From positions 1-44,904 of the IMG/VR virus record IMGVR_UViG_3300031758_000142: DNA of 44,904 bases, one strand, 5' to 3'. Below the pieces are notes generated by a model. That model was not told the DNA's origin. It did no database searches and saw only the letters and a list, made by a program, of their open reading frames with translations. Of the stretch, positions 4,588-14,378 are shown piece by piece (positions within the stretch are counted from its first letter, which is position 1; every line of letters begins with the position of its first letter). Source of the DNA: a virus. The position numbers and the translations under genes are program-made.

Positions 4588-5283
4588 TTAGTTTAGTTTA
4601 AGTTCTTGTAAAACATTTGTAGGTACGGGGCAAGATGTATCGTAATCGTAATAGTAACCGGCATCTGCACCTTCACCTAAATGGGTATCAGATATGTCTG
4701 TGAGCAATTGACAGATTTCACCTTCTTCTGATTTTGTAGTAACATCAGACCATTGTGGTGCATCATACTCACTATGCTCTACACATATACCGTTCTCGTA
4801 CACAAACTCACCACCCCATCCTTGCTCTTCTTGATAGGCAAGAATGAAATCGGGGAAATCTTGTGCCAGTTTGTTAAGAATCGCAGGTTCAAACAAAGAC
4901 CAGGCGGTGGCGAAAGTGAGAGTATGACCATCGATTTCGTTATCGTAGCATCCCCATTTTGTACCCCAAATGTAATGAGCCCAATCATACCAATTGTCCA
5001 CACCATACTTTTTGAGTAATGCATCTTGCATCTTTTCTGTAATAGGCTTGGGTTCATAATAAAAAGGTTGTGATCGATCGATTTTCTCATTCTCCTTCAT
5101 AATCTTTTTGTATTCGGTCTCAGATACAATTCTTGTAGGAGATGTAGTGTTACGAATCTCATCGGGCATAGGGAAATAATACCCACAGATACCATTGTTG
5201 GTGTTAGCGATGATTTGCAATTTCTCTTCTTGCTCTGGAGTCAAGTTATTCATTGCGAGGTGGTAGTAAACATGATTTGGCAT
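4588..5283 (-). CDS. YubB ferredoxin-like domain protein (DUF1281/Api92-like, 231 aa)
   Basis: It opens with MPNHVYYHLAMNNLTPEQ, the usual start of the Api92/DUF1281 family, followed by YYFPMPDEIR. The central YGVDNWYDWAHYIWGTKWGC block and TLTFATAWS are the most conserved parts of the YubB ferredoxin-like fold. The C-terminal third (DYDTSCPVP region) is acidic. These proteins are common in phages and conjugative plasmids. Their biochemical role is not established; despite the name there is no iron-sulfur cluster signature. Confidence 0.75.
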   Translation of the reverse strand: MPNHVYYHLAMNNLTPEQEEKLQIIANTNNGICGYYFPMPDEIRNTTSPTRIVSETEYKKIMKENEKIDRSQPFYYEPKPITEKMQDALLKKYGVDNWYDWAHYIWGTKWGCYDNEIDGHTLTFATAWSLFEPAILNKLAQDFPDFILAYQEEQGWGGEFVYENGICVEHSEYDAPQWSDVTTKSEEGEICQLLTDISDTHLGEGADAGYYYDYDTSCPVPTNVLQELKLN

Positions 5284-10964: not shown

Positions 10965-11297
10965 TTATAGGTTGGTTAAGATTGTTTGAGCAAAGACGCA
11001 TTGTACTGCATCGTGTAGTGAATTGAATACTTCGTTGAGGGTCTCTACATTGTGGTACTCCCTATCAAGGATGACTTGATATGTTCTGTACTCTTCTTTG
11101 AATCCGTTGTCCTCGAAGGAATTCGGTAGAAAGATTAGGTAGGACACGCCATCGATGGTGATATCGATGGACGCACAACGGTCGTTGTGGTAAGTTGAGT
11201 CAGAGACCGAATAGTTCTCAGTCTCTTTGTCACACATTTCTTTGACTTTCTCGATGTGAGCGTCTATGTAGGGCTTGGAAAAGAATAGTTTATTCAT
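10965..11297 (-). CDS. Hypothetical 110-aa protein
   Basis: Residues ~40-75 form strands (ASIDITIDGVSYLIFLPNSF), flanked by helical segments. The stop of the membrane gene and the start of this one share a base. A GGGTCTC site lies inside it, but without the extended VGA. Function unknown. Confidence 0.5.
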   Translation of the reverse strand: MNKLFFSKPYIDAHIEKVKEMCDKETENYSVSDSTYHNDRCASIDITIDGVSYLIFLPNSFEDNGFKEEYRTYQVILDREYHNVETLNEVFNSLHDAVQCVFAQTILTNL

Positions 11298-11521
11298 TAG
11301 TCAAGGGGTGAGGTTAGGATGTCAATAAACCAAATGATAAGCACGACAAACAAAAGGAAGGACAGACAAATCATTACATCCGACCTCATTATTGGTAGTA
11401 GGTTTGACTGCGTGATGATAGCAAACAGGGCTGAGAAAATGGCATTTAAGAAAAGCGTGGTAAGGGCTGACATAAAGACAAGACCGACCAGTCGAGCGGA
11501 TTTTTGGGCTATGGTTTTCAT
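11297..11521 (-). CDS. Two-TM small membrane protein (74 aa)
   Basis: A basic N-terminus (MKTIAQKSARLVG) is followed by two hydrophobic helices, about residues 13-35 (LVFMSALTTLFLNAIFSALF) and 48-69 (VMICLSFLLFVVLIIWFIDI), separated by a short loop. This is a possible class II holin topology, but holin function cannot be claimed because the lysin gene is 9 kb away. A short tail ends LTSPLD. Confidence 0.5.
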   Translation of the reverse strand: MKTIAQKSARLVGLVFMSALTTLFLNAIFSALFAIITQSNLLPIMRSDVMICLSFLLFVVLIIWFIDILTSPLD

Positions 11522-11536
11522 ATGTAGTTAGATTTT

Positions 11537-11581
11537 TGGAAGGCGAGAGGGGAGTCGAACCCCTCTGATTCCTTTTCGCCT
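11537..11581 (-). ncRNA. tRNA-like minihelix with T-arm and CCA end
   Basis: On the minus strand the element starts at 11581 with AGGCGAA, continues with a 10-nt link AAGGAATCAG, a 5-bp T-stem AGGGG/CCCCT closing a canonical T-loop TTCGACT, then CTCGCCT, T and CCA. Six of the seven acceptor positions pair (AGGCGA with TCGCCT), and acceptor plus T-stem give the 12-bp stack of a tRNA. The D-arm and anticodon arm are absent. It follows the 133-aa gene by 15 nt and a GGGTCTCAGA motif by 1 nt. It may be an RNA that mimics a tRNA 3' half, a tRNA remnant or an attachment-site core. Confidence 0.55.
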
Positions 11582-11596
11582 TGGGTCTCAGATCGA

Positions 11597-11998
11597 TTAT
11601 TCACCTATGGCTTCTTCCAATAGACGAGCCTGCACATCCTTGATGATTTCATCGGTGGACATATTACTGCAACGGAGGGCGAACGCTATGATTCGTTCGA
11701 GTCGTTGCTCAAACATAGCACGACCTTTAGGGGTGTTAATTAACTTAAGTTTCGCCTCGGCTTGGATGCTCATCTTTGTATCCCACAGAGTAATCCCATT
11801 GGATTCCATACGGATATTGAAAGGCTCAGTCGCTTTGAAGCACTTAGAACCCACGGCTCGCAGGGTATCATAGTAATCAAAGAAACGATAGACTAAGGCT
11901 TTCTGTACCTTAGCGTTGGACTTTTGGCTTGAAGTTTCAAGATCAAAATTGATGAACGAGCCATTGTTGGCGATGCGGATTGATGTGTTTTTAGTCAT
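11597..11998 (-). CDS. Hypothetical 133-aa protein, first gene after the long leader
   Basis: A basic, mostly helical protein starting MTKNTSIRIANNGSFINFDL, with a middle KVQKALVYRFFDYYDTLRAV and a C-terminal MFEQRLERIIAFALRCSNMS. It is the first gene downstream of the ~460-nt structured leader, so it is the gene most directly controlled by it. No family recognised, and no known nucleic-acid-binding motif is visible. Confidence 0.6.
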   Translation of the reverse strand: MTKNTSIRIANNGSFINFDLETSSQKSNAKVQKALVYRFFDYYDTLRAVGSKCFKATEPFNIRMESNGITLWDTKMSIQAEAKLKLINTPKGRAMFEQRLERIIAFALRCSNMSTDEIIKDVQARLLEEAIGE

Positions 11999-11999
11999 A

Positions 12000-12470
12000 T
12001 GTATATATATAAGGGTTGGCTATCTATGGTCTGACTCGACAGACTGCACCCCATAGGTCAAAGGCTACGGATGGCATAGACAGTTTTGTCGCACCTTATT
12101 TTTTAGGTTTCTCACCCTTGTGGGGTGGTTGAACCAACATAGTGTGATTGGACGGCTTTAGGCTCGCCACTTACACGCCTTCGGATTTCTCCCCAAAGAC
12201 TTACACACGCCTCGCCTATCTTTAGGATAGATTTTTTGACTTGGTCACGAGAGGCTCGCCCACCCTACTATGGTAAGGATGTCACCAAATTGTTCTTCGC
12301 CAATCTCAGCGTAAGGGATTCGCACCCTATAATTTCACGCTGTGTATCTCGCAAGGCAAGGCTTCAAGCGTAAAATGGATTTTACTTTGTTCGATATGTG
12401 TGGTTGTTAACTTTCTTTTTCGTGTGTTTGTGTGGTTGTTAGGTGGATGTTGTTTCGTTGTTGAACGATG
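12000..12470 (-). ncRNA. Candidate structured leader or ncRNA (~460 nt)
   Basis: No reading frame is convincing here, but the minus-strand RNA can form several hairpins. They include one at 12106-12135 (GGTT outside CACCC/GGGTG), one at 12216-12230 (CTATC/GATAG), one at 12247-12257 (CGAG/CTCG), and a T-arm-like element at 12307-12342. GGCTCGCC occurs twice (12161-12168, 12253-12260) and ACTTACAC-type segments recur beside it. It lies between a plausible promoter (12471-12502) and the ATG at 11998. It may be a regulatory 5' leader or an independent structured RNA. Confidence 0.45.
12307..12342 (-). ncRNA. Second T-arm-like stem within the leader
   Basis: The minus strand reads CAGCGT, an 8-nt link, AGGG closing loop TGCGAAT with CCCT, one unpaired T, then ACGCTG. 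The outer stem (6 bp) and inner stem (4 bp) form the same arrangement as the element at 11537-11581. The loop differs from the T-loop consensus TTCRANY at one position. It has no CCA. Confidence 0.4.
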
Positions 12471-13370: not shown

Positions 13371-13603
13371 GGTGCTTTAAGGGACATTATTGCACAATAA
13401 TTGCACATTATAATGGTTAAATGCACCGATTTCGGGGTATTTTAACCAATATATTGTGAAAAAATCACAAAAAAGGGGAATAAGGATTTTCAAACAAATG
13501 CCACTATTTCTATTTACTGGCAAATGTGAGTAATCTACGCAAATGCGTATAGTTATGGTGGAAAAAACTAACAAGTTGAATGAGTTTTATGGAAAAATTC
13601 AGG

Positions 13604-13644
13604 CAGTATAATACCGCTCAGTATAATACCGCTCGGTATAAAAT
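13604..13644. repeat. 15-bp tandem repeat CAGTATAATACCGCT
   Basis: Two exact tandem copies (13604-13618 and 13619-13633) and a partial third (13634-13644, CGGTATAAAAT). Each contains TATAAT. The head-to-tail arrangement resembles iterons or clustered operator sites. Confidence 0.55.
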
Positions 13645-13684
13645 CAATCTATAAATCCTTAAACTAGAATTATACTCCCTATCG

Positions 13685-13734
13685 GTAAAAAGAAAAAGCC
13701 CCACGAGCAGATCTTACGGTATGCAGGTGGGGAC
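13685..13734 (-). terminator. Rho-independent terminator of the middle operon
   Basis: On the minus strand CCCCAC (13732-13727) pairs with GTGGGG (13704-13699), followed by CTTTTTCTTTTT. The loop is 22 nt. It lies about 50 nt downstream of the stop of the GroES-like gene and ends the minus-strand middle operon. Confidence 0.65.
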
Positions 13735-13773
13735 TTTCGGTCTAAGGATACTATCCCTAGGGGGGTTCTTTTA

Positions 13774-13781
13774 CAAAGATA
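13774..13781 (-). promoter_or_regulatory. Candidate -7 box TATCTTTG before the terminator
   Basis: The minus strand reads TATCTTTG immediately after (and touching) the stop codon of the GroES-like gene. Transcription from here would run about 80 nt to the terminator at 13685, giving a short RNA. No clear -33 box is present at the usual distance, so the call is weak. Confidence 0.3.
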
Positions 13782-14069
13782 CTATTTCCAGACTACGGAG
13801 ATATCGGCAGCACGGACAATTATCTTATCCTCTCCCTCTATATCTATGTGTTCTGAGTTCCTGAGGAACATAAGGTTGACTGAGACCCGATCCCCAACCT
13901 CGATGCCTTCTACTTCTTCACCTATGGCGAATACTTCTAGCTGGTTCCACTTCTTCATCTGCTCTTCTAGAATTTCCTTTTCCAAGGCAGCGTTTACCTC
14001 GATAGCACTTTTCTTAATTTCGGGTGGAGTAAGCAATACTCTCTGGCCCCTGACGATATATTTTGTCAT
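13782..14069 (-). CDS. GroES-like co-chaperonin (95 aa)
   Basis: The length and layout match GroES: an early RGQRVLLTPPEIKKSAI segment (GroES: DRVIVKRKEVETKSAGGI), a mobile-loop region, then LEVFAIGEEVEGIEVGDRVS, which parallels GEVLAVG...VKVGDIVIF, and a final DKIIVRAADISVVW strand. The mobile loop here is mostly charged and helical, unlike host GroES, as seen in phage versions such as T4 gp31 that adapt GroEL for folding the capsid protein. The gene is the last of the middle operon, directly before its terminator. Confidence 0.65.
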   Translation of the reverse strand: MTKYIVRGQRVLLTPPEIKKSAIEVNAALEKEILEEQMKKWNQLEVFAIGEEVEGIEVGDRVSVNLMFLRNSEHIDIEGEDKIIVRAADISVVWK

Positions 14070-14075
14070 AATTCT

Positions 14076-14300: not shown

Positions 14301-14305
14301 TTTGA

Positions 14306-14378
14306 GCCACCTGTCGGATTCGAACCAACGACCATCTGATTACAAATCAGAAGCTCTACCAACTGAGCTAAAGTGGCG
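14306..14378 (-). tRNA. tRNA-Thr (anticodon TGT)
   Basis: The minus strand folds as a standard tRNA: acceptor GCCACTT/AGGTGGC (7 bp with one G-U), D-arm GCTC-loop-GAGC, anticodon stem TCTGA/TCAGA with loop TTTGTAA, and T-arm GTTGG/CCGAC with loop TTCGAAT. The anticodon TGT reads ACA. The discriminator is T and CCA is not encoded. It lies between two protein genes in the same orientation. Confidence 0.92.

Follow-up and report, generated by a model that had tools for sequence, protein, structure and literature searches.

Anticodon-less tRNA-like minihelices lie directly ahead of genes in a group of uncultivated phages

Introduction

What does the upper half of a tRNA do between two phage genes when the anticodon arm is missing? 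Free minihelices of an acceptor stem and a T-arm are textbook laboratory models, used for RNase P, CCA addition, minihelix charging and genomic-tag ideas. The locus described here carries one in its own DNA. It lies in a virus record of 44,904 bases, analysed over its whole length and called the window below, in the gap between two small genes. Matches to known types are weak, P22-type for the portal of this phage and crAss-type for its capsid; a serine recombinase is encoded at 1948-2697, and the annotated phage record collection contained no near relative by ORF1, portal or leader RNA. The locus is arranged as follows.

11999-12400, minus strand: conserved structured leader RNA of ORF1, about 400 nt
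11597-11998, minus strand: ORF1, 133 aa, of a family confined to these phages; the element comes after its homologues
11537-11581, minus strand: anticodon-armless tRNA-like minihelix (acceptor stem of 6 bp, T-stem of 6 bp, T-loop, U73, CCA)
11297-11521, minus strand: ORF2, 74 aa, hydrophobic (membrane-like by eye), starting 15 nt after the CCA

Results

Structure of the element

Read from 11581 down to 11537 on the minus strand, the 45 nt are AGGCGA AAAGGAATCA GAGGGG TTCGACT CCCCTC TCGCCT T CCA, and can be divided into these parts.

11582-11592, minus strand: conserved motif TCTGAGACCCA, abutting the acceptor strand on its 5' side
11576-11581, minus strand: 5' strand of the acceptor stem, AGGCGA, pairing with UCGCCU at 11546-11541
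11566-11575, minus strand: 10-nt link AAAGGAAUCA, which replaces the D and anticodon arms and contains GG
11547-11565, minus strand: T-arm GAGGGG-TTCGACT-CCCCTC, with a compensatory swap in the relative L009
11541-11546, minus strand: 3' strand of the acceptor stem, TCGCCT
11537-11540, minus strand: discriminator U11540 and CCA (11539-11537), not conserved across the wider family

Within the T-arm, GAGGGG (11565-11560) pairs with CCCCUC (11552-11547) around the loop UUCGACU (11559-11553). The 12-bp stack is divided 6+6, versus 7+5 in tRNA; in a 7+5 register the pair 7:66 would be A-C, and a possible extra outer pair, A11582-U11540, would leave the minihelix without a discriminator. A reading made from the letters of this DNA (the sequence-only reading) had recognised acceptor stem, T-arm and CCA with the anticodon arm absent, and the minus-strand sequence and its pairing confirm this: the 12-bp stack, the TTCGACT loop, the discriminator, the CCA and the 10-nt link that it had listed are all present. 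It was also right that a complete tRNA has no room here, as the 133-aa gene ends at 11597; the minihelix lies 15 nt downstream of the ORF1 stop codon and 15 nt upstream of the ORF2 ATG. Neither ARAGORN nor Rfam (RF00005) called a tRNA at this place, the tRNA-Thr at 14304-14377 being their only such call in the window, and the short elements of relatives went unrecognised too. The tRNA-type features found are the 12-bp acceptor/T stack (split 6+6 in the window), G53-C61 and a T-loop of the form TTCRANY. Rfam (RF00023) and ARAGORN gave no tmRNA, with its tag frame, in the window. The sequence TTCCAAAAATC comes next after the minihelix, and no intrinsic terminator was called on the minus strand at the site; a weak plus-strand terminator call there corresponds to the shuffle rate.

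The predicted fold has an energy of -20 kcal/mol (ViennaRNA), which 46 of 200 shuffles equalled (z -0.70), so that stability on its own proves nothing for the window minihelix and the case rests on the comparison with relatives. Strict scans of the 44.9-kb window matched the minihelix and the genuine tRNA-Thr only, and shuffled DNA gave no match (30 shuffles of the window, 30 of L067). Two further folds were considered and set aside: a giant tmRNA-like fold joining the GGCGAG motifs of the leader to CUCGCC was dropped, the stem being closed locally in L069, L070, L095 and others, and a second minihelix-like fold at about 12338-12300 (CAGCGT...ACGCTG), not conserved in L003, was taken as chance.

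Recurrence in related phages

Searching with ORF1 returned an identical contig (L002) and one that is 95% identical (L003). The leader-RNA pattern added L009, whose ORF1 is about 54% identical; this pattern, GTGTAAGTGGCGAGCC, gave mostly unrelated matches but yielded this one relative. Compared with the window, the 45-nt element differs in L003 by one base of the link, and in L009 by the same link base together with a swap in the T-stem, from GAGGGG/CCCCTC to GTGGGG/CCCCAC. This is a compensatory change of A-U to U-A, seen in a plain sequence alignment, and the coding DNA beside the element has many changed positions in these relatives while the 45 nt are nearly unchanged. More distant ORF1 homologues (about 52% identical, in L030 and L032-L034) are followed in the same gap by an element of the same architecture and other sequence, with CAA in L033 and L034 where L032 has CCA:

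L030 element: TGTAAAT, 17 nt, GTACG TTCGAGT CGTAC, ATTTACA, G, CCA
L032 element: TCCTATG, 13 nt, GTCTG TTCAAGT CAGAC, CATAGGA, G, CCA

Eighty family loci were gathered by searching with the neighbouring YqaJ-type exonuclease, and strict scans of 941 kb revealed further elements in L086, L089, L095 (two), L119, L127, L131 and L139, compared with a single match in an equal amount of shuffled sequence (941 kb, 7/7-acceptor version). A counterpart of the motif 5' of the acceptor strand, TCTGAGTCCCA, is found in L086, L089 and L095. Independently of any RNA search, an ORF1 profile was used to locate the homologues of this gene: in the 450 nt after each of them, a score of at least 17 of 18 was reached at 10 of the 13 distinct loci, where only 0-1 per 1000 shuffles matched the observed score at each. 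Shuffles served as the background here because random family windows contain real tRNAs. The gap after the homologue fails the scan in L123, L117 and L108, the first two having imperfect acceptor/T-arm folds by eye, ahead of the next ATG. The element thus recurs, with changed sequence, in the gap between ORF1 homologues and the next ORF. The ORF1 family itself (about 130-165 aa, homologues in these phages only) gave no significant Pfam, PHROG, PDB-sequence or fold match and falls in no recognisable RNA-binding family: its weak matches to p19 dsRNA-binding proteins have E-values of 0.27 and worse, and the top PDB folds for its predicted model (pLDDT 77), designed Top7 proteins and the p19 dsRNA-binding suppressor, are not significant.

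Covariation

Across 13 distinct versions the acceptor stem is coaxial with the T-stem-loop at a fixed length of 12 paired columns, and these pairs are formed in 97.4% of cells. Eleven of the 12 have changed on both sides, the exception being G53-C61, invariant as in tRNA, and the sole column with mismatches is 7:66 (in 4 of 13 versions). In total 67 cells are altered on both sides, which none of 500 shuffles reproduced, and sliding the partner strand lowers pairing to 36-50%. Most versions were found by demanding the pairs and the T-loop consensus, which makes this covariation partly circular, and more weight is therefore given to the swap between the window and L009 and to a subgroup that shares the constant linker ATGTAAAGGCAT and the loop TTCGAGT. 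In this subgroup, one member of which (L138) was reached via ORF1 alone, the T-stems differ in sequence and are 100% paired, with four of the five pairs altered on both sides. The sequence-only reading had suggested looking for covariation in related phages, and it is there in the L009 swap, among the 13 versions and within the subgroup. Because the letters change while the shape is kept, the fold has a job. A chance hairpin, which the ordinary folding energy for this composition would allow, has a likelihood close to nil: it is ruled out by shuffles that almost never match, by the conservation and the L009 swap, and by recurrence in the same gap with covariation. A GG is present in all 12 links tested and might contact the T-loop in the manner of a tRNA D-loop; this is only suggestive, and composition alone weakens it.

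Position before start codons

The elements lie between genes and close to coding sequence, the last acceptor base (N72) being 5-28 nt from the next ATG in 14 of 18, and the gene downstream varies among clades. The distance is undefined in L131 (contig end) and amounts to 71 nt in L009, where an insertion is present; no ORF lies within 200 nt of the elements L086a and L089a. The second element of L086 stands 20 nt ahead of the next ATG, and L095 has one element 21 nt ahead of ORF1 and another 16 nt ahead of ORF2. Additional structured RNA lies just upstream of the element in several relatives. A terminator-like hairpin stands between ORF1 and the element in L067/L069 and L070, so the element may there be part of a separate transcript's leader and not stand between genes transcribed together.

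Two other features of these gaps can be recorded. In L009 a D-arm-like hairpin, TACGC-AGCTGGTA-GCGTA (4783-4830), comes right after the CCA; it is absent in the window and L003. In L086, L089, L119, L123, L131 and L138 a recurrent GTTCTTTGACATA-type sequence, followed by further conserved structured RNA, occurs between ORF1 and the next ORF; we take it to resemble the boxA antitermination elements of stable-RNA operons.

The leader of ORF1 and other tRNA-like RNAs

The leader RNA of ORF1 belongs to no Rfam family. Among six relatives, 39 of its 94 predicted pairs have changes on both sides, and it contains repeats of the motifs GTGTAAGT and GGCGAGCC. Its 3' end is a tRNA-like three-way junction followed by CCA, ahead of the ATG; in the window clade the last features, shortly upstream of the ORF1 ATG, are a T-arm-like hairpin, a 9-bp stem and CCA. 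A conserved terminator-like hairpin CCCCACCTGCATACCGTAAGATCTGCTCGTGGGG with a T run lies at about 13690-13740 of the window (minus strand), ahead of a noncoding region; hairpins of this type are also found in L009, L134 and L138, and CCCCACGTGCATACC... in L134.

A second class of tRNA-like RNA was observed in the family, with a tRNA-Leu-like acceptor (AGTCAGG or AACAGAG, GAGAGAG in L113), a D-arm such as TGGCGGAATTGGTAGACGC, a T-arm, and a hypervariable middle of 57-150 nt replacing the anticodon and variable arms. Its members, partly in tandem arrays, are at the following positions.

L083 5448; L085 12678; L086 10363; L094 13474 and 13710; L113 4249
L124 13738 and 14161; L130 2902; L133 6770
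L134 12497 and 12779; L149 14080 and 14503

At L134 12497-12676 a minihelix (ACCCCGT...GTGG TTCGAAT CCAC...ACGGGGT) appears nested in the D-loop of a larger tRNA-like element. L124 and L149 have predicted tmRNAs (13386-13734, Rfam 91.9 bits, and 13728-14074, respectively), with a long predicted tag GNVELSPMAFEDAMSFVSNEYKVAA (ARAGORN), and second-class elements follow directly after them. At L089 6575-6636, outside the ORF1 gap, lies a tRNA-like sequence with D-arm and T-arm and without an anticodon arm (ACCAGAG...CTCTGGT).

Discussion

The conserved parts of the element are those that tRNA-end enzymes read, and it is placed before start codons, which makes cis processing its best explanation. 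We would give a probability of roughly one half to its being an anticodon-armless tRNA mimic that serves as a cis processing signal for RNase P and the tRNA 3'-end enzymes. For this reading we infer transcription across the element, the enzymes involved and the effect on expression: a single transcript would cover both ORFs and the minihelix between them, host RNase P would measure the 12-bp stack from the T-loop and cut 5' of the acceptor strand, and RNase Z, or RNase E with exonucleases, would cut near N73/CCA. ORF1 or an upstream structured RNA would thereby be split from the next mRNA, whose remaining leader would be short (about 5-28 nt), rich in A and unstructured. Sequence plays no part when RNase P measures the T-arm/acceptor stack, which it does from the elbow (PMC4919913), and synthetic hairpins made of acceptor and T-arm are cut at the correct site by the RNase P RNA of E. 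coli (PMC11143913). A processing signal for the structured RNA upstream had already been proposed from the letters of the window; processing has become the best-supported functional guess, by the place of the element and its sequence-free conservation, and that RNA, which the element may perhaps serve, is real and conserved.

CCA and a purine at position 73 aid bacterial RNase P, and their variation across the family counts against processing: the 3' RCC(A) is UCCA in the window and GCCA in L069 and L070, and is absent in several versions, and the window has U73 and a 6+6 stack. The terminator-like hairpins in L067 and L070 count against co-transcription locally. The two elements without a nearby ORF, the three gaps that fail the scan and the ordinary fold stability weigh in the same direction.

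Some of these facts would suit a leader element that acts in cis without cleavage, its tRNA-like fold controlling how the downstream gene is translated or how stable its message is. The fold might, for instance, protect the 5' end, or interact with the ribosome, with ORF1 protein or with some tRNA-binding factor at the elbow. Tight placement ahead of the ATG of different genes fits such a role, the terminator-like hairpins that precede it in L067 and L070 suggest that the element can lie in a 5' leader, and more structured RNA stands just upstream in several relatives. Why a leader should need the full 12-bp acceptor/T stack and a canonical T-loop is not obvious, however, and ORF1 is of no recognisable RNA-binding family; we regard this role as conceivable though doubtful.

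The sequence-only reading also named a chargeable or nuclease-bait mimic. It is unlikely that the element works in trans in this way, as an excised, CCA-ended and perhaps charged RNA of about 45 nt that would be a decoy for acceptor-targeting host toxins or nucleases, or would titrate tRNA enzymes. Several versions do encode CCA, a constant shape with sequence turnover would fit an arms race, and further tRNA-like RNAs that lack a usable anticodon arm occur in these phages, two of which also have a tmRNA. Yet a free decoy need not adjoin start codons, and the CCA is not conserved.

Very improbable, finally, is a remnant: either an attachment core, that is, the 3' end of a host tRNA left by integration, or a decayed phage tRNA lacking its middle. 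Integration commonly leaves tRNA fragments in prokaryotes (PMC9897764), and the record has its serine recombinase. But neither an attachment core nor a pseudogene accounts for compensatory change and conservation beside diverging genes, the same gap is occupied in many lineages, and a complementary 5' acceptor strand of its own is present in each version, for which an attachment core would have no need. An exact-pattern search with the 3' half in 84,980 genomes gave 15 matches, none in Bacteroidota. The attachment core, which the sequence-only reading had offered as one option, is thus poorly supported.

Judged by the features tested, the element falls outside the tRNAs, the tmRNAs and the attachment cores, and several known systems resemble it in part. 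Armless mitochondrial tRNAs, which keep the anticodon arm and lose the D and/or T arms, are likewise very short, with links in place of arms, whereas the phage element has a T-arm and lacks the anticodon arm. tmRNA also combines acceptor and T-arm without an anticodon arm; unlike it, the phage element has no tag-coding region, and its 5' acceptor strand is 10-17 nt from the T-stem (short versions). The tRNA-like structures of plant RNA viruses stand at the 3' end of the genome with a usually pseudoknotted acceptor. They too are viral RNAs mimicking the acceptor/T half, whereas the phage element is internal, belongs to a DNA phage and has a plain acceptor stem; cleavage of the TYMV structure by RNase P is cited in PMC11143913. 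AT1-type RNase P model substrates consist of acceptor stem, T-stem and T-loop (PMC11143913), and have the same architecture as our element, an acceptor stacked on the T-stem, a T-loop and a 3' CCA with hardly anything besides; they are laboratory-made, whereas the phage element, known here from sequence, is encoded, conserved by covariation and placed ahead of start codons. In mitochondria, tRNAs punctuate polycistronic transcripts (PMC8437803): there too tRNA-shaped elements stand between genes, and end-processing would release mRNAs, but those are whole working tRNAs, while the phage element, without an anticodon arm, cannot decode. We rate the element as a tRNA-like structure of surprising natural form and placement, which appears to resemble both the RNase P model substrate and tRNA punctuation.

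The limited open-access literature consulted yielded no report of natural, conserved, anticodon-less minihelices before phage genes. Since the tRNA finders used miss them, the intergenic gaps of phages in general may contain such elements unnoticed. With about a dozen natural sequences of one shape, in vivo acceptance by RNase P, RNase Z and the CCA enzyme becomes directly testable. A group of uncultivated phages carries anticodon-less tRNA look-alikes directly ahead of certain genes, and it is possible, though we put it forward tentatively, that this lineage has made the free-standing top half of tRNA (acceptor and T-arm, with at most a T-loop/GG elbow) into a general, sequence-independent device ahead of genes. 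The device would serve either as processing punctuation or, much like viral IRES elements, as a translation leader that mimics tRNA. It would be one of a wider set of noncoding RNAs in these phages that are built on a tRNA scaffold and have hypervariable middles.
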